A DNA stretch of 64,000 nt from Ruficoccus sp. ZRK36 (GTDB lineage Bacteria; Verrucomicrobiota; Verrucomicrobiia; Opitutales; Cerasicoccaceae): contig NZ_CP080649.1 of assembly GCF_019603315.1 (NCBI RefSeq), positions 3,234,176 to 3,298,175 of the forward strand, in the 5' to 3' direction. The notes beneath the pieces are model-generated. The model was not told the DNA's origin. It did no database searches and saw only the letters and a program-made list of their open reading frames with translations. Both the position numbers and the translations under genes were made by a program. Below, piece after piece: positions 7,135-57,513 of the stretch (positions are counted from its first letter, which is position 1; each line of letters begins with the position of its first letter).

Positions 7135-7135
7135 G

Positions 7136-7150
7136 CAAGACAACGTCTTG
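7136..7150. repeat. short stop-codon-proximal hairpin, possible minimal copy of the backbone repeat
   Basis: CAAGAC-AAC-GTCTTG is a perfect 6-bp hairpin with a 3-nt loop, starting one base after the meaB stop codon. It resembles the first hairpin of the larger repeats at 28554 and 30305 (GCAGGAC-AYA-GTCCTGC) in stem pattern, loop size and position relative to a stop codon. It is too short to be certain it is related. Confidence 0.35.
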
Positions 7151-7182
7151 AAAAAGACGGCGGGGCCTGTATGCTAGGTCCC

Positions 7183-8895: not shown

Positions 8896-9765
8896 ATGAA
8901 GGTTCCGCCACCTCAGTTTTCCTCTGAAACCCTGCGGCTGTCACTCTGCCTGGCCTACTGCCTGAGCTGGGAGACCGGCGGCAAGATGATGCGTGAAAAC
9001 TGGACAACCCTGCGGGAGATCGTCCAACAGCTGGACACCCTCAAGCCTGAGGACCGGCGACTGATCGAGCTCTACGAAGAGAGCGCACCGACGGTCAACG
9101 AAGAGCGCTACCTGACACGGCGCATCGAGAAGCTCGTACCGACCCCCAAGGCCCGCCAGGCCCTGGGCACCTGGATACTGAGCTGTCTGCCCGAGGACCT
9201 GAGTGTCACCGCCGCCCGACACCCGCTGATCCGGGATTGGCTCACGCCTGGCCAGCGCGGTCTGCCCTTCATGCTGCTCCGCCGATCCCGCAGTGTATCT
9301 GCTCAAACAGAGGAGGACAGCCTCCCGGCTGAGTCGGAGCGCGAGGAGGATTTCGCACAGTTTTTGGCCATGCCCGGCTTCGAGAAAACATTCGAGCAGT
9401 ACTGGCACCGCGACCCCAAAGACCGCACGAACAAGCTGACCCGCGCGCTGGTTACCATCGGGGCAATCCTTTCCCACTTTTTCTCCGCCGAGCAGTTTAA
9501 CAAAGGCTCAGCGGTGCGCTCGTACCTGAAGGGCGTTTGCCACTTTTCGGATATTACGGTGGATGAACTATGCGACATAGCCCGGCAACTGGAGTCGCAC
9601 TGGTACCAGAGCACAGACCTCGCCTACCGCCTGCTCGTCGATGCCCGCCTGCGTGACCGCCTGAACATCGACGAGATGGTCAGCACGCTGGATCTGGATG
9701 AGCGCACAACCCCCGAGGACCGCCAGACCTTCCACGAAGTGCTCTCGCTCACCGGCAGTGCGTGA
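8896..9765 (+). CDS. hypothetical 289-aa protein
   Basis: I recognise no family. The protein is soluble, charged and mostly helical, with a conspicuous acidic linker (AQTEEDSLPAESEREEDFAQF) near the middle and no signal peptide or membrane helix. The N-terminal 30 residues read poorly. A start at the downstream ATG pair (8985/8988, MMREN) is possible and would give about 259 residues. TATGAG lies just before the 8896 ATG, and no Shine-Dalgarno is seen. A copy of the backbone hairpin repeat abuts its stop, between it and convergent cimA. Confidence 0.6.
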   Translation: MKVPPPQFSSETLRLSLCLAYCLSWETGGKMMRENWTTLREIVQQLDTLKPEDRRLIELYEESAPTVNEERYLTRRIEKLVPTPKARQALGTWILSCLPEDLSVTAARHPLIRDWLTPGQRGLPFMLLRRSRSVSAQTEEDSLPAESEREEDFAQFLAMPGFEKTFEQYWHRDPKDRTNKLTRALVTIGAILSHFFSAEQFNKGSAVRSYLKGVCHFSDITVDELCDIARQLESHWYQSTDLAYRLLVDARLRDRLNIDEMVSTLDLDERTTPEDRQTFHEVLSLTGSA

Positions 9766-9766
9766 T

Positions 9767-9810
9767 CAGGGCGAGTCCTGGGCCTGTGATGCTTACACAT
9801 CACGGATGGC
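9767..9810. repeat. backbone hairpin repeat, copy D
   Basis: Two modules are visible between convergent genes. CAGG..CCTG lies at 9767-9780, followed by the linker GGCCT and the hairpin GTGATG-CTTACA-CATCAC at 9786-9803. The order and linker match the copies at 28554 and 30305 (GCAGGAC hairpin, ACCT, then GTGATNC hairpin). The position suits a bidirectional terminator or a REP-like element. Confidence 0.55.
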
Positions 9811-9875
9811 ACTACGTGAAGAAATGCAGACCGCAGGCCAGCCCAGAACAAGTCTGAGAGCGTGAGTCCAGCCCC

Positions 9876-16260: not shown

Positions 16261-16448
16261 GAAACATGCAGCCATCAAATCGCCTTCGGGGCAGCGAACG
16301 CAGTGGGCGACATGCACCACGGCGATTGTCGCCAACTCAAACGAACTCCGCTCGCCGACACAGGCCGACGACGAACCCTGTAGGCAAATTGGTATTGGCT
16401 GCGAGCGATGGGGCAAGGCCCCATCATTGTCAGGTGCGGTCACGCACC
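16261..16448. repeat. backbone hairpin repeat, copy C
   Basis: The gap between hom and lysC holds several tight hairpins: GGCGA-TTG-TCGCC at 16321-16333, GATGGGGC-AAG-GCCCCATC at 16407-16425, and GGTGCG-GTCA-CGCACC at 16433-16448, which ends at the hom stop codon. The segments GCAGCGAACGCAGTG, CAAACGAACT and the GATGGGGC hairpin followed by ATT are shared with the copy at 30305-30461. No open frame here is convincing. Confidence 0.6.
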
Positions 16449-17785
16449 TAGGCCTGGAAGATGCGCAGCAGGAAGGGCGTTTCGAGGACGGAGCCGAGGC
16501 GCTTGAGGCGCTTGAGGGTAGCAGCCATGACCTTTTCGTTCGACTTATGGGTCGTGAAAAGCAGCGTCGCGGTGCCCTCCTCAGGCTCCTGATGCTGGGT
16601 CATGGTAGCGATGGACACGCCTTCACGCGAAAGCAAATCGGTCACCTTGGCCAGGACACCGGGCTTGTCCTTGACCCGCAGGCGCAGGTAGTAGGCCGAG
16701 CAGATGGACTCGGGACCGGCCAGCTCGACACCGTCGTGCAGATCGGCGTAGACGTGCTCGTCCTCCTCGCAGATGCGCGGCGCGGGCCAGCCCTGCAGGG
16801 CGTAAACGGCATCCGCGATGTCACTGATAACGGCGCTGGAGGTGGCGTCCTGCCCTGCCCCACGGCCCACCAGCAGCGTGGTGCCGACGACATCACCGGT
16901 CAGGCTGACGCCGTTGTAAACCTCGTCCACACTGGCCATCATCTCGCGGCGCGAGATCAGGGCCGGGTGCAGACGCACGCTCAGGCAGTTGGTGGAAAAG
17001 TCACGGGTGATGACGGCCAGCAGCTTGATCTTGTAGCCCAGCTCGCGGGCGTAGGCGATATCGTACTGGGTGATGCCGCGGATGCCCTCGACGAGCATTT
17101 CCGACGGCTTGACCCAGCGACCGTGCGCCAGGTAAGCGAGGATCACCGCCTTGTGGGCAGCATCCCAACCGTCGAGGTCGAGCGACTCGTCCGCCTCGAC
17201 ATAGCCGAGAGCGCGCGCGTCGTCGAGGATGGCGGGGAAGCTCAGCCCCTCGCGCTCCATCCGGGTCAGGATGTAGTTCGAAGTGCCGTTGAGGATACCG
17301 AAAATGAGCGGAAAGCGGTTGGCGACCAGACCTTCGCGCAGGGTCTTGATGATGGGGATGCCCCCGGCCACGCTGGCTTCGAAAAAGTAATGGGTGCCGT
17401 TTCGCAGGGCGGCGGAGAAAATCTCCTGCCCATGCTTGCAGATGAGAGCCTTGTTCGCAGATACGACGATCTTACCGGCCTTGAGCGCGCGCAGCGTAAG
17501 CGTACGGGCCAGCTTGGTGCCACCGATCAGCTCGCACACGATGTCGATCGAGGGATCGTCAACAACCGCGTAGGGGTCATCCGTGATCTTGGAAGCGGGG
17601 ATCTTGACGCCGCGCTTTTTCTTCAGGTCCGAGACCGCAGCCCGAACCAGATCGAGTTTAACGCCCAGGCGGCGCTCCAGCTCGGAAGCATCCGCATGGA
17701 GGTGTTTCCACACGCCCTGCCCCACTGTGCCGAAGCCCAGCAGTCCGATACGAATGACCTGTTTGCTCTGTTTTTTCTGTTCCAC
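16448..17785 (-). CDS. hom: homoserine dehydrogenase
   Basis: The 445-aa enzyme has the NAD(P) loop GLLGFGTVGQGVW near residue 15, the catalytic region LDGWDAAHKAVILAYLA, and a C-terminal ACT domain (KPGVLAKVTDLLSREGVSI) for feedback control by threonine. It reduces aspartate semialdehyde to homoserine. The start is GTG at 17783-17785; no upstream ATG in frame gives a better N-terminus. It heads the minus-strand aspartate-family block. A stretch of 157 bp separates it from the GPH symporter stop, without a clear promoter call. Confidence 0.95.
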   Translation of the reverse strand: MEQKKQSKQVIRIGLLGFGTVGQGVWKHLHADASELERRLGVKLDLVRAAVSDLKKKRGVKIPASKITDDPYAVVDDPSIDIVCELIGGTKLARTLTLRALKAGKIVVSANKALICKHGQEIFSAALRNGTHYFFEASVAGGIPIIKTLREGLVANRFPLIFGILNGTSNYILTRMEREGLSFPAILDDARALGYVEADESLDLDGWDAAHKAVILAYLAHGRWVKPSEMLVEGIRGITQYDIAYARELGYKIKLLAVITRDFSTNCLSVRLHPALISRREMMASVDEVYNGVSLTGDVVGTTLLVGRGAGQDATSSAVISDIADAVYALQGWPAPRICEEDEHVYADLHDGVELAGPESICSAYYLRLRVKDKPGVLAKVTDLLSREGVSIATMTQHQEPEEGTATLLFTTHKSNEKVMAATLKRLKRLGSVLETPFLLRIFQA

Positions 17786-27609: not shown

Positions 27610-28578
27610 ATGAGCGCGGTATATCCATGGGGCCACGAAGGCCGTTATAATGACTTCACGCGAGCCTTCCGGCGGCGCTTCGAGGGGCGCGTGCAAAAGG
27701 TATCCGTGGACGGCGGCTTTACCTGCCCCAACCGCGACGGCACCCTCGCCTGCAGCGGCTGCGCCTACTGCAACAACGAGAGCTTTAACCCGGACTACTG
27801 CCGCGAGCAGCCCAGTATAGCCGCGCAGCTGCGCGAGGGCATCCAGTTCTTCTCCCGAAAGTATCCCTCGATGGGCTTTCTGGCCTACTTTCAGGCCTAC
27901 TCAAACACCTATGCTCCGCTGGACATCCTGCGCGAACGCTATGAGGAAGCCCTCGCCCAGCCCGGCATCGTCGGTCTGGTGCTCGGCACCCGCCCGGACT
28001 GCGTGACCGAGGAGGCCCTCGACTATCTGGCCGAGCTGGCGCGCGAGCACACCGTCATGATCGAGTACGGCGTCGAATCCGTAAAGGACCAGACCCTGCG
28101 CCGCATCCGGCGTGGCCATAGCTACGCCGACTCGGTCCGGGCCATCGAGAAAACCGCTCAACGGGGCATCACCGTGGGGGCTCACCTCATGCTCGGCCTG
28201 CCCGGCGAAACGTACGAGGACTGGATAGCACAGGCACAGGCTGTCTCCGCCCTGCCCCTTGATCACCTCAAGCTGCACCAGCTCCAGATCGTGCGCGATA
28301 CAACGCTGGCCGACGAATACCTGGCAGACCCGTCGCGCTTTCACCTTTTCAGCCCCGAGGAGTACCTCGAAACGGTGGTCGATTACCTGGAGCGCCTCAA
28401 CCCGCAGATTGTCGTCGAACGCTTCACCAGCGAAGCCCCCGCGGACCTGCTGCTGGCCCCGGACTGGGGAAAGCTCCGCAACTACCAGTTTGCGATGAAG
28501 GTCGAGAAACGCCTGCGCGAACGCGACACCTACCAGGGCCGCCTCTACGCTGAGCAGGACATAGTCCTGCACCTGTGA
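27610..28578 (+). CDS. TIGR01212-family radical SAM protein (YhcC-like)
   Basis: The 322-aa protein has the iron-sulfur cysteines in FTCPNRDGTLACSGCAYCNNESF (pieces; CxnCxxC type), followed by the SAM-binding region LVLGTRPDCV, IEYGVESVKDQTLRRIRRGH and HLMLGLPGETYEDW. This order is characteristic of the TIGR01212/YhcC family, whose substrate is unsettled. The last codons (AEQDIVLHL and stop) lie inside the first hairpin of the backbone repeat, so the repeat encodes the protein's C-terminus. TATAAA lies 12 nt before the start. Confidence 0.85.
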   Translation: MSAVYPWGHEGRYNDFTRAFRRRFEGRVQKVSVDGGFTCPNRDGTLACSGCAYCNNESFNPDYCREQPSIAAQLREGIQFFSRKYPSMGFLAYFQAYSNTYAPLDILRERYEEALAQPGIVGLVLGTRPDCVTEEALDYLAELAREHTVMIEYGVESVKDQTLRRIRRGHSYADSVRAIEKTAQRGITVGAHLMLGLPGETYEDWIAQAQAVSALPLDHLKLHQLQIVRDTTLADEYLADPSRFHLFSPEEYLETVVDYLERLNPQIVVERFTSEAPADLLLAPDWGKLRNYQFAMKVEKRLRERDTYQGRLYAEQDIVLHL

Positions 28579-28755
28579 TGCTCACGCATCACTGATGACT
28601 CCGCTAAGGCGGAGCCATAGGCCGAGTTGCATCCGGTGGCAATAATGCTGTCTCCAGATCACACGAACTCCTCTTGCGCAATCGAAAGCTAAAGGGGTAG
28701 GCACGCAGTGCCGTAGGGGCGAAGCCCCTCAATGCCACCGGGTGCAACCCGGTCA
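28554..28755. repeat. backbone hairpin repeat, copy A (array of at least six hairpins)
   Basis: The stretch between two convergent genes is almost all tight hairpins. They are GCAGGAC-ATA-GTCCTGC (28554-28570), GTGATGC-TCAC-GCATCAC (28575-28592), CTCCGC-TAAG-GCGGAG (28599-28614), GGCAC-GCA-GTGCC (28700-28712), AGGGGC-GAA-GCCCCT (28715-28729) and CCGGGT-GCA-ACCCGG (28738-28752). TTGC..GCAA encloses 28627-28642. Loops are mostly 3-4 nt. The first two modules are shared with copies at 9767 and 30305, with paired base changes that keep the stems intact. It could act as a bidirectional terminator, RNA stabiliser or REP-type element. Confidence 0.7.
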
Positions 28756-29649
28756 CGCACCCATCACATCGCCCATGTGGGCGTAGAGTTCGCGTCCGGC
28801 GGCGGTATGCTCTAAAAGGTCGGCGGACAACTCCACCCGGCCGGGCTCAAAGAGCGTGATGCACATTGAGCCGCCGAAGCCGAAGTAACCCTTTTCGCCG
28901 CCCTTGGGCGTGTACTGGCCGGGCACATGCGTCTGCACGATCGTGCCCACACAAGTCGCGCCAACCTCCAGGCAGAGTATCTGCCCAAAGCTTTCCGTCT
29001 TCAGTCCGGTCAGGGCACGCTTGTTTTCCCACAGGACAGACAGCCGCTGGCGCAGGCACACCGGGTTGACGGAGTAGAGGCTGCCGTTGACGAGCAGCGT
29101 CTCACCCGGCACGCCCTCGGCCGGATAGTGAAAACGGTGATAGTCCACCGGGCACAGCCGCGAGATGACCATCGAACCGCCGCTGTATTGGTCCGCCAAT
29201 ACGGGATCGCCGAGCAGTTTCTCCAGGTCCATACGCTGGCCCTTGGCGTAAAACTGGTCCGATGCGCTCACATCGGCAAAGCCCAGATGCCGACCGTCGG
29301 CGGGGAAGACCACGGTGGCCTCGTCCGCGTCAATCGGCCGAGCCTCGGGCTTGAGGTGGCGCGAAAAGAAATCGTTAAAATTTTGGAAGTGGTCCGGCGG
29401 TCTCGCCATCTCGTTGATATCGAGCCCGTATTTTTCGATGAAGGGGACGATCTTGCGTGCGCTGGAGCGACGGTCCATCCGCCAGCCGTACCAGCGTGAG
29501 AACCACGCGCGCTTGGCCGCGAGCTCGACCGTGAGCCGCCCCAGCGGCTTGTTATAGGCCCAGTCCAGCCAAGCCTCGCCGTAGACGGACTCGCGCTCGA
29601 TCTGGCCGGTCAGGCGATTAAAAAACTCGGGGCCTTGGGATTCGCTCAT
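28753..29649 (-). CDS. psd: phosphatidylserine decarboxylase
   Basis: The 298-aa proenzyme makes phosphatidylethanolamine at the membrane. It has FNDFFSRHLKPEARPID, the catalytic-site region VDYHRFHYPAEG, and the self-cleavage motif GGS within YFGFGGSMC near the C-terminus, where cleavage would create the pyruvoyl Ser. The start at 29647-29649 (MSESQGPEFF) is chosen because the 24-residue upstream extension reads poorly and runs into the opposite-strand leader. The gene end overlaps the last hairpin area of repeat copy A. It is convergent with the radical SAM gene. Confidence 0.9.
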   Translation of the reverse strand: MSESQGPEFFNRLTGQIERESVYGEAWLDWAYNKPLGRLTVELAAKRAWFSRWYGWRMDRRSSARKIVPFIEKYGLDINEMARPPDHFQNFNDFFSRHLKPEARPIDADEATVVFPADGRHLGFADVSASDQFYAKGQRMDLEKLLGDPVLADQYSGGSMVISRLCPVDYHRFHYPAEGVPGETLLVNGSLYSVNPVCLRQRLSVLWENKRALTGLKTESFGQILCLEVGATCVGTIVQTHVPGQYTPKGGEKGYFGFGGSMCITLFEPGRVELSADLLEHTAAGRELYAHMGDVMGA

Positions 29650-29803
29650 GCGGGGCACAGGTTTTAGCAAAAACACCGCCACGCCAAGCGGGAAAGTCAT
29701 GGCCACGAAGAGTCCCGGCACGGGCCGGAATCTTGACAGCCCTCAGGCCTCGGCCCTATTGTTGCAACCCTATTGCATCTTTAACGTTGTACCGGTTTCC
29801 GTC

Positions 29804-30301
29804 ATGAATGCCAAGCCCCCCGCCGTCAGCCAGTCCGACAACCCCAACCTGATCCCCCCGAGCGGCCCAAACTGGCGCCTGATTGGAGCCGCGATTGTCG
29901 CCCTGGCGATTATCGGCAGCATCGTATCGATCCCACTCTACGAGCGCTGGCAGACGGAGAAGGCCGCCCACATCGAGCGCGGCAAACAATTTGGAGCGCT
30001 CTACCCCATCGAAATCAACGGCCAACCCTACGAGCTGGAGCTCGGCTGGGGCCGCAAAAACCTCATCATCCTGACCGAGCCACTCCTGCCCACGGATACG
30101 CAGATCACTGTCAGCGGGGACTTCGGCACGGAGACGCTCGCCTGGAACGAGGAGTACAAGATATTCGGCCCCTCGCAGCTCCCCGTCGATCCCGCCGCCC
30201 ACCACAAGGTCACCGTCACCATCAAGGACGCTGACGGCAACCTGCTGTGGAAAGGCAAACGCTGGGCCTGGGGCATCGTCAGCGAGCATCACCACCACTA
30301 G
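29804..30301 (+). CDS. membrane-anchored hypothetical protein with a natural His4 C-terminus
   Basis: This 165-aa protein has a short Pro/Asn-rich cytoplasmic lead, one membrane helix (LIGAAIVALAIIGSIVSIPL) and an extracytoplasmic beta-rich domain (YELELGWGRKNLIILTEP, TQITVSGDFGTETLAWNEEYKI). It ends SEHHHH. I do not recognise the family. The ATG at 29804 is chosen over the more upstream one at 29648, which would overlap the divergent psd start. The stop abuts repeat copy B. The terminal His run could bind metal, but no evidence for this is present. Confidence 0.6.
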   Translation: MNAKPPAVSQSDNPNLIPPSGPNWRLIGAAIVALAIIGSIVSIPLYERWQTEKAAHIERGKQFGALYPIEINGQPYELELGWGRKNLIILTEPLLPTDTQITVSGDFGTETLAWNEEYKIFGPSQLPVDPAAHHKVTVTIKDADGNLLWKGKRWAWGIVSEHHHH

Positions 30302-30304
30302 CAG

Positions 30305-30461
30305 GCAGGACACAGTCCTGCACCTGTGATCCTGTCGGATCACTGAGGCCAACGCTTTAAGCGTCGGCCTGGGCAATGGCGGTTGCGCCGATTCAAACGA
30401 ACTTCTCTTGCTCTATATAAAAGAGCAGCGAACGCAGTGAGCGATGGGGCAGAGCCCCATC
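30305..30461. repeat. backbone hairpin repeat, copy B
   Basis: Between a plus-strand gene and convergent clpB lie GCAGGAC-ACA-GTCCTGC (30305-30321), GTGATCC-TGTC-GGATCAC (30326-30343), AGGCC-ACGCTTTAAGCGT-GGCCT nested at 30346-30370, and GATGGGGC-AGA-GCCCCATC (30443-30461). The second hairpin differs from copy A by a C-G in place of a G-C pair, a covariation that supports structure. The right part (GCAGCGAACGCAGTG, GATGGGGC hairpin, CATT) matches copy C at 16261-16448. Confidence 0.7.
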
Positions 30462-30468
30462 ATTCGCA

Positions 30469-42260: not shown

Positions 42261-43337
42261 TTGAGTAAGACAAATAAAGCACGTGTACGCCTCAAAGACA
42301 TTGCCGCCGACCTTGGTTTAAGTGTGTCGGCGGTCTCGATGGCCCTGCGTGAAGACGCCTCCATCCCCACAGAAACGGTGAAGCGTGTCAAAGAAGCCGC
42401 GCAACGCCTCGGCTATGCGCCCGACCCGGCGCTGAGCGCACTGGCTGCCTACCGCAGCGGCTTAAAGGTGCGCGAAGACTTCAACGTCATCGCACTGGTT
42501 TCAGACATATCGCCGGAGGGCAGATGGCTATCCAGCAACAGCGCGCAAAAGCTGATCGAGGGCGCCACCGAGCGCGCACGCACCCTCGGCTACACGCTCC
42601 AGTACTTCAACGCCTGGAACGACGGCATGACCCCGCAGCGCCTCAGTAAGGTCCTCCGCGCGCGGGGTGTTCGCGGGATCATCATCGGGCCGATGGCCGA
42701 CCCCTCAGCGACGCTCGATATGGACTGGAAGCGCTTCTCCGTGGTCATGGTCGAGCGGGCTTTCCAGTACGGGCACTTTCACCATGTCGTCCCCAACTAC
42801 TACAACGACATGATGCTCGTGCTGCACCACCTCCGGGCCAAGGGCTACAAGCGCCCCGGCATGATCCTCTACCAGTCGCTGGCTGAGCGCGTCGGCCACC
42901 GCTGGGAGGCTGCCTACGCCGTCGGCTGGCCGGAGAAAACCGGTGACATCCCCGCCCTCATTCTGACCCCGGACATGCTGGACGGCAACGTCCTGGACTG
43001 GTTCCGGCGCTATCGGCCGGATGTTATCATCGGTCGCGGGATGCTCATCATGCGCACCCTTGAGCAGGCCGGGATCGCAGTCCCCGGCGATGTCGGCTAT
43101 GTCGCGCTCAGCGCACTGGATGAGCCAGCCGGCGTCAGCGGCATCATCCAGCACCGGGACGCTATCGGCGCCGCCGCCGTGGACATCCTCAACTCCCTGC
43201 TCCACCGCAACCACTGCGGCCCGAACACCATTTCCCTCGGCACCCATGTGGACGGCACCTGGCACGAAGGCCACACCCTGCGCCCCACCCCGGTCTCGCT
43301 CCGGGCAGAGATACCGAGCCGCGCCATCAACGGCTGA
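42261..43337 (+). CDS. LacI-family transcriptional regulator (TTG start)
   Basis: The 358-aa protein has VRLKDIAADLGLSVSAVSMALREDASIP (pieces) as its HTH, the hinge AAQRLGYAPDPALSALAAYRSG, and a ligand-binding domain ending near VSGIIQHRDAIGAAAVDIL. The only start that keeps the whole HTH is TTG at 42261. It is divergent from the sulfatase and probably represses it and perhaps the GH5-like gene. A terminator follows at 43352, then the island boundary. Confidence 0.9.
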   Translation: MSKTNKARVRLKDIAADLGLSVSAVSMALREDASIPTETVKRVKEAAQRLGYAPDPALSALAAYRSGLKVREDFNVIALVSDISPEGRWLSSNSAQKLIEGATERARTLGYTLQYFNAWNDGMTPQRLSKVLRARGVRGIIIGPMADPSATLDMDWKRFSVVMVERAFQYGHFHHVVPNYYNDMMLVLHHLRAKGYKRPGMILYQSLAERVGHRWEAAYAVGWPEKTGDIPALILTPDMLDGNVLDWFRRYRPDVIIGRGMLIMRTLEQAGIAVPGDVGYVALSALDEPAGVSGIIQHRDAIGAAAVDILNSLLHRNHCGPNTISLGTHVDGTWHEGHTLRPTPVSLRAEIPSRAING

Positions 43338-43351
43338 TTTTGCCCATAAAA

Positions 43352-43384
43352 AAAACCCGCTCAGTCGTAGACCAAGCGGGTTTT
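43352..43384 (+). terminator. rho-independent terminator after the LacI-type gene
   Basis: AAAACCCGCT and AGCGGGTTTT form a perfect 10-bp stem around a 13-nt loop, flanked by A and T runs. It would end the LacI-type transcript and may also act on the opposite strand. Confidence 0.85.
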
Positions 43385-43390
43385 CTAAAA

Positions 43391-43444
43391 TGGTGGCCAG
43401 AACGTGAATCGAACACGTGACACAAGGATTTTCAGTCCTCTGCT
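43391..43444 (-). other. tRNA-Phe 3' fragment: attachment site at the island's left boundary
   Basis: On the minus strand 54 nt match the 3' part of tRNA-Phe. They include the anticodon arm with loop CTGAAAA (anticodon GAA), the variable region GTGTC, the T arm ACGTG-TTCGATT-CACGT, the acceptor strand TCTGGCC, discriminator A and encoded CCA. Upstream of the anticodon stem the sequence departs completely from a tRNA: no D arm and no matching GGCCAGA acceptor strand. This is what integration into a tRNA 3' end leaves at the distal end of an island. The integrase gene begins 195 bp further right. Confidence 0.85.
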
Positions 43445-43577
43445 TATGTATGCCTAGTTGTTTCATGTTCTGACAGGTTTGTTATTCAAATATATGTTAA
43501 TTAGCGATTTATGAAATTATTGATGAAGTTTGAATTCTGAGCTTGGCATATCTAGGCAGGACTCAGCACCCCCAATT

Positions 43578-43596
43578 TAAGCAACAAATAAGCAAC
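43578..43596. repeat. direct repeat TAAGCAAC, 11-bp spacing, next to the integrase
   Basis: TAAGCAAC occurs at 43578-43585 and again at 43589-43596, between the tRNA-Phe fragment and the integrase. Helical-turn spacing suggests same-face binding sites, as for integrase arm sites or an autoregulatory operator. Confidence 0.45.
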
Positions 43597-43638
43597 TAAG
43601 GCTTGCTTGCCTCGACGAGAAATACTAAGATTGAATAC

Positions 43639-44949
43639 ATGAAATCGTCCAAAGGAACACTAGACTATTGGTATGACCGTATCCGCAAGAATTCGTTCAA
43701 ACGTACAGATGGCTCCACCTACACCAGCCCAGAGTATGAGATTTATATGTCCGTCGGAGGCAAGCAACAGCGTTTCAAATTGGGTACAGGCAACAAAGAG
43801 GTTGCCGCAGAGAAAGCATTGGAAATCTACATGTACAACCGTGCTAACGGTGCCCAAGCTACTCTTGAAAAGTACAAACAAAAAAAGACTGTGGCGGTTG
43901 ATGATCCAACCGTTGGCCAATTTCTGGAAGAAATTGGCCGCCTTCGGCTAATAAAACAGACAACTTTCACCGACTATTCGCGAAAATTCCGAACCGTAGT
44001 CAGCGGCGTCTTTCGTATCCCTGCGGACAAATCACGGTGCTATCACCGTGGCGAGGCTGTTAAAGCGTGGCGCAACAGGGTTGACTCGATAAAGATATCG
44101 GACTTGAGCGCTAGCAGAATAATGCAGTGGAGGGCGAACTATCTTGATGGACTAGAGCAAGACCCCATTGCCCAAAGACGGGGGAAGGCCACCGTGACAT
44201 CACTCCTACGCAACTCAAAAGCTTTATTTAGTCCGAAGTATGTTAAGCACCTCACTTTTAAGCTACCTCAAAACCCTTTCGATGGACTCGTAATCGGTGG
44301 CTCTACGACTCGACAGTACAAGTCTGAGGTCGATTTCATGTCCTTGGCAAACAAGGCGAAAGAAGAGCTGTACGCGGAACTGTCTGATCTTCCGGCTATT
44401 GACGATAAACAGATGCGGAAAAGCACGATCGCTCTCAATAAAGCACTATCAAAACGTGAGCAGTTTAAGATAATCTTGCTGTGCTTGGGGTGCGGAATGC
44501 GGCGAAGCGAAGCGGATACCCTGCTCTGGACCAACGTCGATTTTAAATCGAATAAAATTCGCGTCGAAGCAACCGAGTATGGGGACGTAAAAGGAGCATC
44601 GAGCGAACGCGTGATTGATGTCGATGCAACCGTCGTGGAGCTACTCGCGAAATTTAAAGAAGAGGCCTCCGGTAGCTTTGTGATTGAAAGCAATCGCAAA
44701 CCAAAACCTTCCGTGAGATACCATTATTATCGATGCGACCATCATTTCAAGCGACTTATCGCTTGGTTGCACACTCAGGGAATCACGCAAAGAAATGCGA
44801 TCCACGAATTGCGCAAGGAATTTGGTTCGCAGCTCACGGAGCAATTTGGCATCTACGTCGCTTCAAAAGCACTTGGACATTCTGAAGTAACGACAACAGC
44901 CCGGAGTTACCTAGAGAAGAAAGGCCACAAAAGCCTGGCAATCTTTTGA
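43639..44949 (+). CDS. int: tyrosine recombinase (island integrase)
   Basis: The 436-aa protein has an N-terminal arm/core-binding part and a C-terminal catalytic domain with Arg288 (GCGMRRSEADTLL), His389-x-x-Arg392 (HELRKEFG), His414 (LGHSEVTT) and Tyr424 (ARSYLEKK), the complete R-H-R-H-Y set. The ATG at 43639 is chosen; a TTG at 43603 would add 12 residues. It sits just inside the tRNA-Phe-derived attachment site, so it is the likely enzyme for integration at that tRNA. Base composition is clearly lower in GC than the backbone to its left. Confidence 0.95.
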   Translation: MKSSKGTLDYWYDRIRKNSFKRTDGSTYTSPEYEIYMSVGGKQQRFKLGTGNKEVAAEKALEIYMYNRANGAQATLEKYKQKKTVAVDDPTVGQFLEEIGRLRLIKQTTFTDYSRKFRTVVSGVFRIPADKSRCYHRGEAVKAWRNRVDSIKISDLSASRIMQWRANYLDGLEQDPIAQRRGKATVTSLLRNSKALFSPKYVKHLTFKLPQNPFDGLVIGGSTTRQYKSEVDFMSLANKAKEELYAELSDLPAIDDKQMRKSTIALNKALSKREQFKIILLCLGCGMRRSEADTLLWTNVDFKSNKIRVEATEYGDVKGASSERVIDVDATVVELLAKFKEEASGSFVIESNRKPKPSVRYHYYRCDHHFKRLIAWLHTQGITQRNAIHELRKEFGSQLTEQFGIYVASKALGHSEVTTTARSYLEKKGHKSLAIF

Positions 44950-44963
44950 GGTCACATTTGAAC

Positions 44964-45398
44964 TCAGGTCGCTTTGCGAATCCCGCGCTCCTCGGCAATC
45001 CGGTTCACTTCATCCAGATAGTACCGACATGATGTTCTCGACATCCTGATCTTTGTTAAGCCCCAATCCTTGGCCCTTCGGCTGAAGTAGCGAGGATTAT
45101 AGCCTAGAATCCTTGCTGCGTCCCTACCGCTAATTTGCTGCCTTCCAAGTTTTTCGGGTACGTTCGACTTTTCAGATTTTTCGACCGGGGCATTCGCCCC
45201 GATAATTTCGATAATCTCAGACTTAGGAATCGAGTCGATAACTTGCCTGCGGATACTTGAATCTGTCAATGCTTGCCTAATAATTGCTGAAGCAAAACTC
45301 GCGATGTCGCCTTGAATTGCGGGGTGTTGAATCAGCATACTCAAGAATCCCGAAGTGTCGCTCTGCAATTTCATATCCATGTTCAGAGTATATCGCAT
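44964..45398 (-). CDS. 144-aa putative HTH protein (excisionase or regulator)
   Basis: Residues about 85-140 read as a MerR/excisionase-type HTH with wing (ISGRDAARILGYNPRYFSRRA, then a basic strand and YYLDEVNRIAEERG). The N-terminal half is helical, with a charged linker. It is convergent with the integrase (14-bp gap) and divergent from the 262-aa gene. That position and fold suit a recombination directionality factor or an element repressor. The start is at 45398, with the ATG at 45380 as an alternative. The family is not certain. Confidence 0.6.
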   Translation of the reverse strand: MRYTLNMDMKLQSDTSGFLSMLIQHPAIQGDIASFASAIIRQALTDSSIRRQVIDSIPKSEIIEIIGANAPVEKSEKSNVPEKLGRQQISGRDAARILGYNPRYFSRRAKDWGLTKIRMSRTSCRYYLDEVNRIAEERGIRKAT

Positions 45399-45471
45399 TT
45401 CTCTGGAAAGAATAGGGAATCTCGCTGAGGGAGTATTACCGAATTATCAGGACGATGGAATTTTTTGACGG

Positions 45472-45490
45472 ATTGGTGCATCCGACCAAT
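45472..45490. promoter_or_regulatory. operator-like inverted repeat between divergent island genes
   Basis: ATTGGT-GCATCCG-ACCAAT is a perfect 6-bp inverted repeat with a 7-nt spacer in the 128-bp gap between the 144-aa and 262-aa genes. It is a plausible binding site for the HTH protein encoded on its left. Confidence 0.4.
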
Positions 45491-45526
45491 AGTCCGTTTT
45501 ATGATGAATTTTAATTTCTGAAAATA

Positions 45527-46315
45527 ATGTCTGGAGTTGATAATTGTCCACTGGTGGCCAGCGAGGACTTTATACATGAATTAATGAGCAGTGAGTCCGA
45601 GGCAAGATTAGCTGCGTTTTATGATCTTTGGCGATCATCAGAGAGTCTTAGGAGGCAGATACGACAGATTGTTGATAATGAAATTATCGACAACGCATCG
45701 CCCCCGCCTGGCAGCGCTTCAACCGAAAAATCACGCGACAGACTTTTTAAGACTACTTGCAGCGATGGGGGCAATGAGGCCTTAACGGATTTTGCGAAGA
45801 TTGCGCCCGAAGTCGAAAAACGTCTAACCTGCGCCTACGGCGGGCTAAGCCGTAAAGAATTGTTGATATTGCTAGATAGGCACAGAATTGGCAGGCGTGA
45901 CCCGGGGACCTATTTATTGATTCGAGCTTGGAAAAGGCATACCGACAGTTCCGATAACTCGCCGGATTTCCGATTAAAGCGACTGACGCTAAGCTATATC
46001 GAGCGAGCGATCATTGAGAACCGTGCGGATTTTTTCCGTGATACCGCTGACATCCTCGAATTCCTCAAAGACGGCGAATTTTGCGAGAACGGTCGGTGGG
46101 ACCATGACCCCGGACAGTTTTGGCAATTCCATTTGCTGCTCTACATCTTAGAGCATCCAAAAGAAAAATACACGATACGGGAGTTTGGAGCCTACTTTGA
46201 GCGTGAAGTGGGTGCCAATGAAATGCCGACCGCAAAAACCATTCGAGCGTTTTGCCGATCAAACGGCATTTCCTTGGATTCCACTCCCGGCGCACCGAAA
46301 AAAGTGAGCACGTAG
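45527..46315 (+). CDS. hypothetical 262-aa island protein
   Basis: No family is recognised. The protein is soluble and charged. The N-terminal third is helical with a Ser/Pro-rich linker, and the C-terminal region (KYTIREFGAYFEREVGANEMPTAKTIRAFCRSNGI, in pieces) could be a DNA-binding HTH. It is divergent from the 144-aa gene. Directly after its TAG stop the same frame stays open for about 38 more codons (ending STVDKLASAYGK), which may be chance or a lost C-terminus. Function unknown; a role in element maintenance is inferred from position only. Confidence 0.6.
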   Translation: MSGVDNCPLVASEDFIHELMSSESEARLAAFYDLWRSSESLRRQIRQIVDNEIIDNASPPPGSASTEKSRDRLFKTTCSDGGNEALTDFAKIAPEVEKRLTCAYGGLSRKELLILLDRHRIGRRDPGTYLLIRAWKRHTDSSDNSPDFRLKRLTLSYIERAIIENRADFFRDTADILEFLKDGEFCENGRWDHDPGQFWQFHLLLYILEHPKEKYTIREFGAYFEREVGANEMPTAKTIRAFCRSNGISLDSTPGAPKKVST

Positions 46316-46672
46316 CCGCTCCGTTCACTTGCAAAAAAAAGCCATGTGGCTCCGGCAGCGATCAGCAGACCGAGCCCCGAGTTGCATCTGTCCACTGTTG
46401 ATAAGTTGGCCAGCGCCTATGGTAAGTAAGCTTGGCAATTACTCCGTTTAGGGGCCGCAGGAGTCGGGAGGAGACTCTTATTGTTCCAATAACTGGTAAA
46501 GATATAAGGGAGGAAGTAAGAAATAATGATTTTGAATTACTGCTAACCAAATGCTGGAATCAGGCGATCAACATCTGACACATAGGCTGTACTTCCTTGC
46601 TTCCCGATATTTTACAGCAGCTAAAACGTTCGTACTTGCAGAAATCAGCTTTGTAGAGAGCCTAATTTAGGC
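46316..46672. other. gap with possible gene remnants
   Basis: This 357-bp gap has no full gene. A 48-residue frame from TTG at 46432 to TGA at 46578 reads plausibly (contains EETLIVPITGKDIREEV and LLLTKCWNQAINI) and may be the tail of a degraded gene, but it has no ribosome-binding site or recognisable family. The first 110 bp continue the frame of the preceding gene past its stop. Confidence 0.35.
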
Positions 46673-48253
46673 ATGGACGGCAAAGCAGCCCCAAGAGTAT
46701 TTATATCGTATTCTCACGATTCCCCTGAACACAAGCAGTGGGTCAGCGAATTCGTGACTGAACTACGTCTGAGCCACGGAGTCGATGCCATATTGGATCA
46801 ATTGCACCTAGGGCCGGGTGATGATTTTGTCTACTTCATGAGAGAGGCCATCGGCAAGGCTGAGTGGATATTGATTGTTTGCACTGACCCATACATTGAG
46901 AAGGCGAATTCGAGAACAGGAGGCGCAGGATATGAGACTATCATCGTCGAAGGTGAGCTAATTCGTGACCTCAAAACGAAGAAGTTCATTCCCATATACC
47001 GTCTATCCGACGGTTCATGTCGTGCGCCAGATTCTTTATCGACCCGTTTTGGCGTAAACTTCCACAATTCCGTTGATCGTGAAGAGGCATTTCGGCAGTT
47101 GGTAAACTGTTTGCATGGAATCCCTCCCGACATTCCACCAGTTGGCGGAGGTCCCAAACCAAAGAAGAGTAATGCAATAACATCCCCTACTACGGTAAAA
47201 CCAGTACAAGTGAGTCCAAACTACACCAAGGAGCCACCTGGTCAGATTGATGTTTTGCAGCCCTATTCAAAAGAGCCCCCCGGCGTAATCCCTGTCTTTC
47301 CTGAACCGTCAGATGCCACAGGAGAATTCTACGAGGACGCCTTGAACTACGCGACCATTGGGAATCGCACAATCTGGCGTCGCCAACTTGATTCAAGAAT
47401 TAAGATCGCGTTCATGAAGCTGTTTGAGCTCAGGGAGTCTTGGGATCGCGCGCAATACACACAAGAAGATTGGGAACCTGAAAGTTTTCCCCAAATAGCT
47501 TTTGAATCTTTAGCAGTATTCAAAGAAGTGTTCTGCATGGGTTTAGCAGGCATCGAAGCAGCGAATCAGGGATTCAATCGCCAAACTTCACTGATACAAG
47601 AGTTAGTTGACCCACCCGATTGGGATTGGGCTGGATCGGTTGTTACTCGCTCGATTCCCGAATTACTTGTGTTTTGCTTTCAAGCATTGGCCGGAGCAAT
47701 GAGCGTCAAATCCGAGCAACCACACATCATATTTGGTATGGCGAATTTGCCAGTTAGTCGGAGATTCCAGTCGGACAGCACAACATTATGGCAGCAAACA
47801 AATCACATTGGTTGGCCGGAAACACTTGGCCGGAATTGTGTTAACGCATGGAATTTCCTCATGCGCCTACACGCCGAAGTCGAATGGATTTCAAAAATAT
47901 TCGATGGCAAATCGCTTAAGGGGCTCGTATGCGCACACTATGCCCTGTTATCCGTAAATGAATTTCTGCACTTTCTAGATGAAAAGCCGAATCTTGAGAC
48001 CTACCATCATGGCATACCGACAATGTTTCTAGGGCATGACAACTTAGAGCGTGGTCTTCAGTACCTTTATCGGAGCAAAGTCGAAATCAGGGAATGTATT
48101 TTGTCAGGACACGATATTCGAAAGCTCAATGAATACTGGATTGTATGGGTGAAACGATCGTTGGATTACTATGCCAAATTGAATCGTATCGGAATTTACC
48201 GCGATGCTCGACTAGGCGGATTTAAAGACCTCCTACCCAATTTATTAAGCTGA
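46673..48253 (+). CDS. SEFIR/TIR-like domain protein, candidate defence or signalling effector
   Basis: The 526-aa protein opens with RVFISYSHDSPEHKQWVSEF and continues DAILDQLHLGPGDDF, EWILIVCTDPYIEKAN and KKFIPIYRLSD, the strand pattern of SEFIR domains, relatives of TIR (about residues 8-160). A low-complexity linker follows with two imperfect repeats, YTKEPPGQIDV and YSKEPPGVIPV. The C-terminal 300 residues are helical with no family I recognise. Bacterial SEFIR and TIR proteins are often found in anti-phage systems or NAD-related signalling. It stands alone here, so a single-gene effector is possible. GC is low, in keeping with the island. Confidence 0.75.
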   Translation: MDGKAAPRVFISYSHDSPEHKQWVSEFVTELRLSHGVDAILDQLHLGPGDDFVYFMREAIGKAEWILIVCTDPYIEKANSRTGGAGYETIIVEGELIRDLKTKKFIPIYRLSDGSCRAPDSLSTRFGVNFHNSVDREEAFRQLVNCLHGIPPDIPPVGGGPKPKKSNAITSPTTVKPVQVSPNYTKEPPGQIDVLQPYSKEPPGVIPVFPEPSDATGEFYEDALNYATIGNRTIWRRQLDSRIKIAFMKLFELRESWDRAQYTQEDWEPESFPQIAFESLAVFKEVFCMGLAGIEAANQGFNRQTSLIQELVDPPDWDWAGSVVTRSIPELLVFCFQALAGAMSVKSEQPHIIFGMANLPVSRRFQSDSTTLWQQTNHIGWPETLGRNCVNAWNFLMRLHAEVEWISKIFDGKSLKGLVCAHYALLSVNEFLHFLDEKPNLETYHHGIPTMFLGHDNLERGLQYLYRSKVEIRECILSGHDIRKLNEYWIVWVKRSLDYYAKLNRIGIYRDARLGGFKDLLPNLLS

Positions 48254-48273
48254 TTTCTGAATCAAATACTAAC

Positions 48274-49806
48274 TCACCGCTTACGCTTGGCCTTCGCCCA
48301 CCAGTCGCAAATCTTACCGTCCAGTCCAATGGGCGGCACGGTCATTTTCTTCCAACCCTGTTCGCAGTGCTGTACCACGCACTCAAACTTCCGCAGTTTG
48401 CGAAATTCATACGGCTGGATGATGTAGCGATCTTCCTTGTGCTTGTTAAACGAATGTTTACCCCCGGAGACGCCTTGCGACTTGCGCCAGACTTCCCGCT
48501 TGCCTACGCAGTCTGCGGCGGTTTTGGCGCTTTCTTCATCGGCAGCCTTGAAGATCACCCGATTGCCCATGTTGGCGATAAAGACTTTGGCTTTATCCGC
48601 GCCCATAGGCGGAACCAAGCTTTGTGTGGATTGCGTGCCCGTCATGACCATGACGCTCGCTTCCCGCAAGGTGTCCACGGTGTTGTAGTCGCTCAAGCCC
48701 GCTTCGTTGGCGGTGGCTGTCTTCTGGAATTCGTCAAAGAGCCCAACCAGCAGATTCAGGCCTTCGCGTTCCTTGGCGGACTTGTCGAAGCGTTGCAGGC
48801 CGTGATTGTAGAAGCTCAGTTTTAGGAGCGTGTAGATATAGCGGCGCTCAACCGAGAATTTCTGAGGCATGGCGACCGTGGCGATTTTACCCTTGTCCAG
48901 ATCGGTAAAGGTGAACGTTGACGGCTCCTCGGAGCAGAATACCTCTGCAATTTGGGGACTGGTGAAGTAACTCAAATAACCCGCGATGGTCGATTGAACC
49001 CCTCGAAAGGTTTCTTCATTGAGACTCAGGTAGCTGGTTGCGAAATGATCAAGCACCTCATTTGCTTCCGGCGTATCGAACTCAGCCAGCGTTTCGCCCA
49101 TTTTTTCTAAGTATTCTTCGTCAGTCAGCAGATCGAAGCAATTGAGGATGGTAACCGGCTGACCAAGCGCTTTCAAAAAGCGAAATCCCCATTCGATATG
49201 GATGGTCGCCTGTTGCTGAAAAAACGGATTCTCATTGCCTTTTTTAGTAAGGGAACTGGCGACATCCACAATCGTCTTGGCATGATTGGAGTACGGAATA
49301 CCCGGCACTTCGAGAAAGTTGAACGTGACCTTGGGTTTCCAGTCCGCAGGCGCGTTGTCGGGACGGACCTCCAGGACAATCAAGTCGCTTTCATCTTTGG
49401 CGGGGTGATTTTTGAAGATGCCTTGTAAGACCTCAATAAAGGCGCCCTTTTCATCCAGAATAAGTCCGCCCCAATTCGGCGTATTCTGGCAAAGCTGCCA
49501 GATCACCCGTCGAAAGAAAAAGGTTTTGCCGCTGCCCGTTTGCCCGGAAACAAACCAGTGGCGGCACGCTTCGGATTGGCGCCAGACGAAGCGGCCAAAC
49601 CGGAAAATCACCGGATTTTTATCAACGGCCTCCGGTTTTGCGGGCTTGCTTTTGCTCCGTGATCGACTGCATTCGCAGTAAAATTGCCATGCGGCCAGTG
49701 CGCCAAAAGCATAGGCGGAGGCGGCAAGCATTTCCTTTGGACTCCATAGCAAGACGTAGGCTATAGAACCGGAAAAAATGCTTAATATGAGGTTGCCGAA
49801 GGGCAT
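48274..49806 (-). CDS. VirD4/TraG-type coupling ATPase
   Basis: The 510-aa protein has a short N-terminal membrane region (LILSIFSGSIAYVLLW and AASAYAFGALAAWQF), Walker A GQTGSGKT at residues 88-95, a Walker B-like LVGLFDEFQKTA, and the ending motif SVMVMTGTQSTQSL with FIANMGNRVIFKAADEE, as in type IV coupling proteins that hand DNA-relaxase complexes to a conjugation channel. No relaxase or channel gene is visible next to it, so the island may be mobilised in trans or its transfer genes lie further right. A 26-bp gap to the 124-aa gene on the same strand suggests one transcript. Confidence 0.85.
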   Translation of the reverse strand: MPFGNLILSIFSGSIAYVLLWSPKEMLAASAYAFGALAAWQFYCECSRSRSKSKPAKPEAVDKNPVIFRFGRFVWRQSEACRHWFVSGQTGSGKTFFFRRVIWQLCQNTPNWGGLILDEKGAFIEVLQGIFKNHPAKDESDLIVLEVRPDNAPADWKPKVTFNFLEVPGIPYSNHAKTIVDVASSLTKKGNENPFFQQQATIHIEWGFRFLKALGQPVTILNCFDLLTDEEYLEKMGETLAEFDTPEANEVLDHFATSYLSLNEETFRGVQSTIAGYLSYFTSPQIAEVFCSEEPSTFTFTDLDKGKIATVAMPQKFSVERRYIYTLLKLSFYNHGLQRFDKSAKEREGLNLLVGLFDEFQKTATANEAGLSDYNTVDTLREASVMVMTGTQSTQSLVPPMGADKAKVFIANMGNRVIFKAADEESAKTAADCVGKREVWRKSQGVSGGKHSFNKHKEDRYIIQPYEFRKLRKFECVVQHCEQGWKKMTVPPIGLDGKICDWWAKAKRKR

Positions 49807-49832
49807 TCAGTCAAAGGGGGTTCAGTGGGAAA

Positions 49833-50207
49833 TCATTCCGATGAAGGCTGGATGTTATTCTTTTCAGAGATCGAGATTTTCTCAATAAATGGCGATCCTT
49901 GCGGACATCGCGCCATGAGTCGCTTATCGTTCGCTTTGATCCACTCGACGCTGAATTTCGCTATGCGTTCAAATAATGGTTCCAAACGAACGCCCTCCAT
50001 ACAGACCTCATGCGAGGAATAATGAAGCGTAATCCGCTCAATTTCGTTAAGATTTTCGTAGTCTCCATTGATGAAGTGAATCCAAGGGAATATTCGGCGT
50101 AGCCCGTCCTGAGTTTTTATGAGCAGCGTGGGAGCGCCTTCGCTGAGCGAAGCGCTGAGGACGCCTTCCGGCGGCCTCATTTCCTGAGTGGTGTTCCCGG
50201 TTTCCAT
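49833..50207 (-). CDS. hypothetical 124-aa island protein
   Basis: No family is recognised. It is small and soluble with a beta-rich N-terminal half (APTLLIKTQDGLRRIFPWIHFINGDYE, in pieces) and a helical C-terminal half (PLFERIAKFSVEWIKANDK). It lies directly upstream of the coupling ATPase on the same strand. Its start overlaps the end of the interrupted frame at 50177-50689 in another reading frame, a layout normal for a mobilisation operon. A transfer-related role is inferred from position only. Confidence 0.55.
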   Translation of the reverse strand: METGNTTQEMRPPEGVLSASLSEGAPTLLIKTQDGLRRIFPWIHFINGDYENLNEIERITLHYSSHEVCMEGVRLEPLFERIAKFSVEWIKANDKRLMARCPQGSPFIEKISISEKNNIQPSSE

Positions 50208-50689
50208 ATTGGTTCGCCTAACATTGATTGTCGCATACTCCGACTTTGGCTCCGTCTGAACGTGCGGCGGGGCGGTTCGATACGCTGGCGGGGCTCTGGC
50301 GGCGCCACGTGAAATTTCTTAAGCATTCGCTGTTGGAGTTCCTTGATAATAAGTTTTGAGGTCTATTGGGCGTGATCTATTCCCTGACGATTCAATTGCC
50401 TGCCCTTGTCATTTGATTTCGCAAAGTCCATCGCCAAAGTGCGCTCGCCGAGGCGTAGTAGATTTTCGCGCAGAGCTTCCTCGTCAGAGGTATATATTTT
50501 AATTTTCGACGCGCCCGCGAAATCGACACGTACCGCTGGTTGCGATTGGTCGCAGCCCGATTTTGCGAGTCAGAGAACAGAACCGTATCTACGGTTTTGC
50601 CCTGCTAAGGCGAGTAATCGTCTTTAGATTGATTTTAGACCAAAATGCTTTCTGTCGCACCCAGTTATTTCATGTGATCGCATTTCCAT
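50177..50689 (-). pseudogene. decayed island gene with three in-frame stops
   Basis: A good ribosome-binding site (GGAGGAG) precedes an ATG at 50687-50689. From there one frame of 171 codons reads like protein throughout but is cut by TAA (50624-50626), TGA (50570-50572) and TAG (50363-50365). Between the stops are LLALAGQNRRYGSVL, then a 67-residue stretch with VRVDFAGASKIKIY and ALRENLLRLGERTLAMDF, then KLIIKELQQRMLKK and a Pro/Arg-rich tail ending PGTPLRK. The last part, from ATG at 50326, could still be made as a 49-aa protein. The family is not recognised; it precedes the 124-aa and coupling genes, so a mobilisation role is likely. Confidence 0.55.
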
Positions 50690-50777
50690 GGAGCTCCTCC
50701 TACGTACACATGGCTCTATTTGGACTGAGCCTGATTCAAGTGAAAGAAGGTGCTTGACATATCCCTCTCATCTCGTC

Positions 50778-51194
50778 TTGAAATCGATAAACGTGCGTGC
50801 TAAGAAGAAAATTGTAGCCCTGTTAATTGGCCTTGTCGCTTGGAACGGAGTTCTGGGTGGGGTTGATGGGTTATTAATGTGTCTGCACGCGGCAGGATCA
50901 TTACATATTGCCAGCATTGATCCTGTGAAGGAATGCTGTCATGGAACTGATGAAGCATCAATTCATGAATGTAACAATTGTAATGATGTTGAGCTAAGCA
51001 GTGTCGATATGCTTGCTTTGCGGGACGGTGATTCATTGCTTAATAATCTTCCCGCCGATGCTCCTGAAATAGTTGTGCGACCCGAGTTTGTCTGGAAAGC
51101 TGAAAAAGTTCTCGGACCGACTCCGACACGCGCTCCTCCGCATAGTGTAGATGTTTGTCTGCTGGTAGCAGAGACAGTCGTGCTACGCATTTGA
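50778..51194 (+). CDS. small secreted Cys-rich protein heading the metal-efflux operon
   Basis: The protein (about 138 aa) has a basic start, a signal-like helix (KIVALLIGLVAWNGVLGG) and cysteine/histidine motifs CLHAAGS, CCHGTDEASIHECNNC that could bind metal, then a disordered Pro-rich tail. No family is recognised, though small proteins of this kind often precede RND metal pumps. The start is unsure: TTG at 50778 or GTG at 50793 fits the signal peptide, while the ATG at 50688 adds a non-signal lead. The TolC-type gene follows about 95 bp later. Confidence 0.55.
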   Translation: MKSINVRAKKKIVALLIGLVAWNGVLGGVDGLLMCLHAAGSLHIASIDPVKECCHGTDEASIHECNNCNDVELSSVDMLALRDGDSLLNNLPADAPEIVVRPEFVWKAEKVLGPTPTRAPPHSVDVCLLVAETVVLRI

Positions 51195-51289
51195 AATCCT
51201 GATCAACGTTGATGGGCGTCTCCATTCTGGAGCCGCTTTTTGCATGCCCCATTCGGGCGCGCAGTCACCAACTTGCATCAGGATTTTCC

Positions 51290-52561: not shown

Positions 52562-52606
52562 TCAATCAATCGTCATTACCTTAATTTTAAATTCATAATT
52601 ATTTCC

Positions 52607-53737: not shown

Positions 53738-53757
53738 GCTGAAAGGATAAAACATAT

Positions 53758-56856: not shown

Positions 56857-56873
56857 TCCTAACGAATCTATCT

Positions 56874-57200: not shown

Positions 57201-57238
57201 ATCATGCCCATCAGCGTGCGCAGATAAGCCGTTGTCTC

Positions 57239-57505: not shown

Positions 57506-57513
57506 TTATCAAA

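Follow-up and report, generated by a model that had tools for sequence, protein, structure and literature searches.

The 64,000-nt stretch of Ruficoccus sp. ZRK36 analyzed here (the window; contig NZ_CP080649.1, forward strand, positions 3,234,176 to 3,298,175) carries copies of a family of multi-hairpin intergenic repeats at the ends of backbone genes, as the original prediction, made from the letters of the window alone, had proposed. Many further copies occur in the same genome (G000) and in three genomes of the same genus (the congeners G001, G002 and G003), and pairing is kept in the copies aligned. The nearest records to the ClpB of G000 are of Opitutae type, which makes an Opitutae-type verrucomicrobium the probable source. 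The explanation we favor, with about an even chance of being right, is that the repeats are non-autonomous, modular, palindromic mobile elements, mosaics similar to miniature inverted-repeat transposable elements (MITEs) and bacterial interspersed mosaic elements (BIMEs), which are confined to one genus as far as searched and prefer sites flush with the stop codons of pre-existing genes. They look like members of the MITE/BIME-like class rather than a new regulatory RNA.

The copies share a two-hairpin head, made up of H1 (GCAGGAC..GTCCTGC) and H2 (GTGATSC..GSATCAC), with one of several bodies behind it. In the F1 body, H3 and H4 lead to the linker CTCAAACGAACTTC, then to a variable hairpin and finally to a conserved stretch with the end TTGACTGCGAG. 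In the F2 body, GGCATTTTCAGGAGAAAATGCC and a linker precede a core whose 20-bp stem is variable in sequence and nearly perfect in pairing. There are other modules, B (GATGGGGC..GCCCCATC with GGGGCAGCGAACGCAGTGAGCG), T2 (GTGCGTGACCGCAC) and T3 (CGGGTTGCACCCG), and joining, duplication and nesting make the copies mosaics of exchangeable hairpins. Composites at loci L320, L330 and also L172 resemble two element ends in inverted orientation; those at L320 (G000) and L330 (G001) are alike, with flanks that differ by eye.

As a DNA query against G000, the window copy at 30305 gave at least 51 matching pieces (best 40 of 137 candidates scored). A covariance model of 112 positions (R1), trained on 17 G000 copies including the one at 30303, which as a training sequence matches by construction, gave at least 130 matches at E≤1 from the 150 candidates scored out of 2044, overlapping and opposite-strand matches being counted as separate rows. 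Among 54 genomes, nine were matched by R1 at E≤1e-3: G000 (68 matches), the three congeners (58, 49 and 46) and five of the 50 genomes outside the genus (1–7 weak matches each). At E≤1e-5, ten genomes of the family had 96, 49, 35 and 39 matches within the genus and 0 to 4 in the other six. A second model (R2), which represents the F2 core alone and not the complete 245-nt element, found 98, 85, 25 and 12 matches at E≤1e-6 in G000 to G003, opposite-strand echoes included, and a single one outside the genus, in one of six other family genomes. The distribution within genomes is uneven: R1 had no match at E≤0.01 in 400 kb of G002 (C35:1-200000, C20:1-180000 and C20:205001-225000), though 49 are present genome-wide, and copies are unevenly spread along G000 as well (chi2 47.7, 14 df). 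A 163-nt copy had no match among the plasmids and phages searched, nor had one exact 25-base pattern in the viral contigs searched. With Rfam at the gathering score the window yielded tRNA only and no family for the elements; loci L162, L325 and L347 yielded RNase P RNA and tRNA, both outside the elements.

Gene context and pairing were assessed on the 98 of the 130 R1 matches that scored at least 30.7 bits, with genes called by a home-made hexamer gene finder that is weak within the island of the window. There are 52 copies that follow a sense gene in a convergent region, 26 that lie codirectionally in the sense orientation, 18 that are antisense (upstream and downstream), and merely 2 in divergent regions; for reference, 360 sampled intergenic regions include 66 convergent and 64 divergent ones. 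Half of the copies with a sense upstream gene (39 of 78) start within −4 to +7 nt of its stop, against a mean of 8.6 and a maximum of 18 in 2000 trials of random placement in the same spacers, and in further copies the stop lies in the H1 loop region (7) or between H1 and H2 (6). In the loci examined in G001–G003, 21 heads were found by pattern; 15 have a sense upstream gene and 9 of the 15 are pinned in this way. The stop codon of the pinned G000 copies is TAG in 24 of 39, vs 104 of 350 overall (p=1.2e-4), and it stands in CTAG in 14 of 39, vs 37 of 350 (p=1e-4), an enrichment of about threefold. Starts within −12 to 8 nt of an upstream sense stop were found for 35 of 108 H1, 15 of 53 T3 and 9 of 37 T2 hairpins, mostly at 0–3 nt, the remaining starts being deeper inside arrays; near-stop H2 and B hairpins peak at 22–23 nt. 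On the far side of convergent pairs, a hairpin is also found 6 nt or less from the opposite stop in 22 of 52 copies, compared with 21 of 228 ends that lack element markers, in a similar span. Stop-adjacent hairpins occur at 11 of 20 element ends (shuffled mean 1.4). The notion that every gene end carries such a hairpin was rejected: ends without element markers had one at 21 of 228 in G000 (shuffled mean 11.9, maximum 21) and at 7 of 178 in G002 (shuffled mean 10.2).

Comparison with the congeners indicates that the genes were there before the elements. For 20 sense copies the upstream gene end could be matched in congener stretches (best blastn hit of at least 200 nt; synteny not confirmed case by case), and 18 of these ends are empty: 17 have no marker motif, and that of 116803 has one marker. 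The sites of 28554 and 30305 are among the empty ones, the latter copy having no counterpart at the best-match end of its upstream gene (G001, G002) or at the clpB end (G002, G003). Two ends are occupied, that of 2355908 by marker motifs and that of 246497 by eye (one marker). By eye, the congener stop is usually at about the same place, and the element has therefore arrived at a pre-existing stop. At 28554 and 2631406 the last codons have been altered by the element; the radical SAM proteins of G001 and G002 have a different end and no element there. At 1741711, G001 carries a different copy in the region. A larger difference is seen at L241 (G000:C1:116803-120050), where convergent argS-like and hisB-like genes (named by eye), each with its own element at its end and the two elements in opposite orientations, are separated by about 3 kb in which several genes were called; in the G002 counterparts the two stops are merely a few tens of bases apart.

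A link to insertion sequences (IS) of the IS630 family comes from the sister species. At 7 of the 14 G002/G003 loci viewed, the repeat CTAGTGTNNCGTNAGCYWAGTT (CTAGTGT...) stands at one or both ends of the F2 core. Complete repeat-bounded F2 copies measure ∼207–213 bp, and similar ends are present on a MITE of 154 bp. Exact matches to the repeat pattern number 45 in G002, 26 in G003, 1 in G000 and 0 in G001 (0 for a reversed-pattern control), and the G000 stretches examined contain two loci with the repeat when up to 4 substitutions are allowed. Ends of this kind also bound a G002 IS of ∼1.15 kb that encodes a 365-aa protein with DDE_3 and helix-turn-helix (HTH) domains, and the terminal inverted repeats of the sister-species MITEs resemble those of the intact IS. 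In G002 the protein occurs in four copies with 100% identity and in two with 59–60%; G001 has a fragment, and G000 and G003 have none. A DDE_3 search gave 12 matches in G002, 4 in G001 and none in G000 or G003. CTAG is present at both ends in 6 of the 10 repeat-bounded copies with both ends visible; in the remaining 4, one end has an altered form. At loci chosen for holding repeats, 39 repeat ends have an upstream gene, antisense in 3 cases; the TAG is exactly its stop codon at 16 of these ends, two of which are in G000, five of which (L354, L355, L357, L359 and L360) have upstream genes cut by the stretch edge, and one of which (L289) has TTAG rather than CTAG. In G002, a CTAG stop coincides with a repeat end at L235 and also L184, and an F1 element starts 96 nt beyond it, an arrangement that may be intermediate between a repeat-bounded MITE and an H1-headed cap. 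At L350:1-1148 (G002:C1) an intact IS630-family IS with CTAG ends directly adjoins a ∼154-bp MITE with similar ends, and at L347:1069-1637 (G002:C12) three repeat-bounded MITEs form an end-to-end stack with CTAG junctions in common.

The word CTAG is scarce in these genomes. In G000, 464 kb contain 275 occurrences, vs 1708 expected from base composition, and in G002, 400 kb contain 153, vs 1419 expected, a six- to ninefold depletion; it is also concentrated at stops (39 of the 275 and 33, respectively). IS630-type elements insert into TA with duplication of the TA, according to the part of PMC2170065 that was available. TA alone was rejected as the target, being too weak, since intergenic TA outnumbers stop TA by ∼15:1. 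IS630 itself reportedly prefers CTAG, going by the title of a study cited in PMC2170065. We infer that an IS630-type transposase targets TA within CTAG, and that this scarce word, concentrated at amber stops, leads to the pinning; insertion at C-TA-G would rebuild the stop, the first base of the element being G. Such targeting would account for the way repeat-bounded MITEs are pinned to stops. The G000 copies, which have the F2 core and the stop pinning in common with these MITEs, would descend from them, having lost the outer repeats and swapped hairpin modules. If the targeting is real, it offers a mobile element a route to settle a hundred times in a genome with little spare room while doing hardly any damage, by way of a word found largely at stops or between genes and a stop that is rebuilt on insertion.

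Several observations weigh against this explanation. The G000 assembly (completeness 98.6%) has no DDE_3 or IS630 match over the cut-off and one exact repeat end genome-wide, and therefore its ∼100 copies were not moved by a resident IS630; the mover proposed for them is putative. A reverse transcriptase as resident mover likewise had no G000 match over the cut-off. G003 has 26 exact repeat ends yet no DDE_3 match, and the pattern used did not detect the repeat at the other 7 F2 loci viewed in G002/G003. Among the 39 H1-headed pinned copies, 25 are not at CTAG and 7 are at TGA; the nested copies read lack TA at the junction, and no terminal inverted repeats were seen by eye on F1. Selection for position is another possible cause of the pinning, which involves all three stop codons.

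The hairpin arms covary. The paired change from GTGATGC..GCATCAC to GTGATCC..GGATCAC, on which the original prediction had drawn, is real, and in the 98 aligned heads, a set biased toward paired copies because R1 scores structure, pairing holds in 90.3% of 1335 cells (the best of 500 shuffles gave 79.5%, slid partners gave 33–37%), with changes on both sides at 11 of 14 head pairs. In 18 copies of the F2 core, the 20-bp stem is 99.2% paired and both sides have changed at 12 of 20 pairs. The mispairs in the heads are strand-symmetric: G.T (G.U in sense RNA) occurs 46 times and A.C (G.U in antisense RNA) 48 times, and the 77 well-formed heads alone have 19 sense-type and 28 antisense-type mispairs. 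Sense-type G.U mispairs should predominate if only the sense RNA were under selection, and these modest counts therefore suggest that the covariation is mostly DNA-level, as in the template-switching model (in the part of PMC8794818 available). Arms may have been kept identical mainly by template switching or single-stranded DNA and cruciform steps, not by sense-RNA selection. The functional-RNA reading is weakened both by this symmetry and by the link of F2 to IS630-type MITEs. As a caution of wider use, covariation among paralogous repeats can stem from DNA-level processes and need not imply a functional RNA.

Placement behind genes invites a second explanation, which we regard as rather doubtful: that the hairpins are selected 3′-end modules that terminate transcription or protect mRNA ends, are copied between genes, and require adjacency to the stop. 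It would explain the pinning, the 78 of 98 copies behind a sense gene and the near absence from divergent regions, and it gains from the finding that sites resembling intrinsic terminators are rarer at pinned convergent element ends (3 of 32) than at element-free ones (26 of 68, p=0.004), also in an unbiased sample (1 of 19 vs 66 of 212, p=0.016). At 1509394 and 14553 a relative has, by eye, a terminator with a T-tract in the place of the element. Against it, the element hairpins have no T-tract behind them by eye; a site resembling an intrinsic terminator (GC hairpin plus T-tract) was seen at 9 of 53 pinned ends in a permissive scan, ∼3 of them convincing by eye. A native-type terminator is still present downstream of the element at 113391 and 246497, congeners have a copy at only 2 of 20 sites (one identified by script, the other by eye), the mispairs favor neither strand, and element-free gene ends show little (G000) or no (G002) excess of stop-adjacent hairpins. 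A gene-end role is possible, though unproven. A combination, in which mobile and swappable modules reach stops, rebuild them and take over 3′-end formation or protection from native terminators, is in our estimate unlikely. If it were true, many 3′ untranslated regions (UTRs) of backbone genes in the genus would be shuffled hairpin cassettes drawn from a mobile pool. Gene ends with and without elements are a natural test set for 3′-end formation in these bacteria.

The remaining alternatives concern how the copies spread. That intergenic regions were rebuilt with no transposition at all, through template switching, tandem duplication and hairpin-to-hairpin recombination, is decidedly unlikely. 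In its favor are the duplicated and nested modules (e.g. 1329481, 3334863), the almost perfect arms of the F2 stem, where both sides have changed at 12 of 20 pairs, and a published mechanism (PMC8794818, seen in part), but the same module order over 112–245 nt at dozens of unrelated gene ends would seem to need copying and insertion. Most improbable is that these are repetitive extragenic palindromes (REPs) or BIMEs moved by a since-lost REP-associated tyrosine transposase (RAYT, of the Y1 type). Like REPs and BIMEs, the elements are intergenic mosaics of short palindromes (15–20 nt) near gene 3′ ends and are nearly absent from divergent regions; GTAG is present in the F1 tail (CTGTAGGCAAATT), and GTAG REPs are plentiful in the verrucomicrobium O. 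terrae (PMC3733652, in the portion available), which counts for this view. Unlike them, they have a longer fixed module order, and no constant GTAG/CGTC foot was seen at H1 (98 heads, by eye). The associated RAYT-type transposase that the original prediction had considered was not found in G000: PF01797 has no match over the cut-off in G000, G002 or G003, each of which has tens of copies, while G001 has four matches, three of them over the cut-off.

With mobile, non-autonomous elements as the preferred reading, the closest known parallel is the RUP of Streptococcus pneumoniae, which the accessible part of PMC2229807 describes as a 107-bp sequence with 108 intergenic copies, TA targets and IS630-family-like inverted repeats, thought to be mobilized by an IS630-family transposase (IS630-Spn1). 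Part of the sister-species copies are, like RUP as described there, MITEs with IS630-family-like ends, whereas the G000 copies lack such ends and are hairpin mosaics, often flush at stops. Correia/NEMIS and ERIC elements are likewise small structured repeats with TA at their termini (same source), but modular swapping and stop pinning are unstated for them in what was available; apart from the plasmid and phage searches, they were compared by description. With IS630/Tc1-mariner elements the likeness lies in the DDE_3 transposase and CTAG ends of G002, and the difference in the lack of an IS630 match in G000. No description of these elements or of CTAG stop-codon targeting was found in titles and the opening lines of abstracts, a coverage that leaves out most of the subscription literature.

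The features of the window are collected in Table 1. All four copies named in the original prediction (at 9767, 16261, 28554 and 30305) are present as described and are matched by R1; those at 9767, 28554 and 30305 lie between convergent genes and that at 16261 between codirectional ones.

Table 1. Elements and modules in the window (positions within the window; R1 scores and E-values for 464 kb searched).
Feature	Position	Strand	Basis or remark
Degenerate copy	9764..9865	+	R1 28.9 bits, E 5.5e-6
B-left linker GGGGCAGCGAACGCAGTG	16288..16305	+	Read in sequence
Truncated F1 body (hairpin H4 + CAAACGAACTCC)	16302..16359	+	R1 27.5 bits, E 1.4e-5
B hairpin GATGGGGC..GCCCCATC	16407..16425	.	Read in sequence
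T2 hairpin	16434..16447	-	Directly after TAG stop (in CTAG, 16448-16451) of gene 16448-17785
F1 copy with nested T3 hairpins	28552..28752	+	R1 73.5 bits, E 2.8e-19
H1 hairpin GCAGGAC-ATA-GTCCTGC	28554..28570	+	Also encodes ...QDIVLHL of radical SAM protein
H2 hairpin GTGATGC-TCAC-GCATCAC	28575..28592	+	Holds TGA stop of radical SAM gene, 28576-28578
Best-preserved F1 copy of window + B module	30302..30468	+	R1 113.4 bits, E 3.4e-31
H1 hairpin GCAGGAC-ACA-GTCCTGC	30305..30321	+	Read in sequence
H2 hairpin GTGATCC-TGTC-GGATCAC	30326..30343	+	Read in sequence
B hairpin GATGGGGC-AGA-GCCCCATC	30443..30461	.	Read in sequence

A minimal copy suspected at 7136 was not counted: a short hairpin (CAAGAC-AAC-GTCTTG, 7132-7160) does stand immediately 3′ of a TGA stop, but it has no R1 match at E≤0.01. 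At the same threshold R1 had no match in the island at 43–61 kb, in agreement with the original prediction, which saw no copy there. In that region (43000-61000) few genes were called by the finder trained on the remaining genome, a sign of atypical codon use. In the copy at 9764, H1 (CAGGGC..GTCCTG) begins 1 nt past the TGA stop of gene 8896-9765 and an H2-like hairpin comes next; the convergent neighbor gene encodes HMGL-like and LeuA_dimer domains. At the 16302 site a fuller copy is present in the same intergenic region of G002, with none in G001 or G003 (by eye). The copy at 28552, flanked by the radical SAM gene on one side and a phosphatidylserine decarboxylase gene on the other, is the one that had been thought to encode the final codons of the radical SAM protein, and does so (PF04055, PF16199). 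The copy at 30302 begins right behind a TAG stop, again in CTAG (30298-30301). Both of these last two copies fold better than 200 of 200 shuffles each (z −7.73 at 28552 and −5.35 at 30302).

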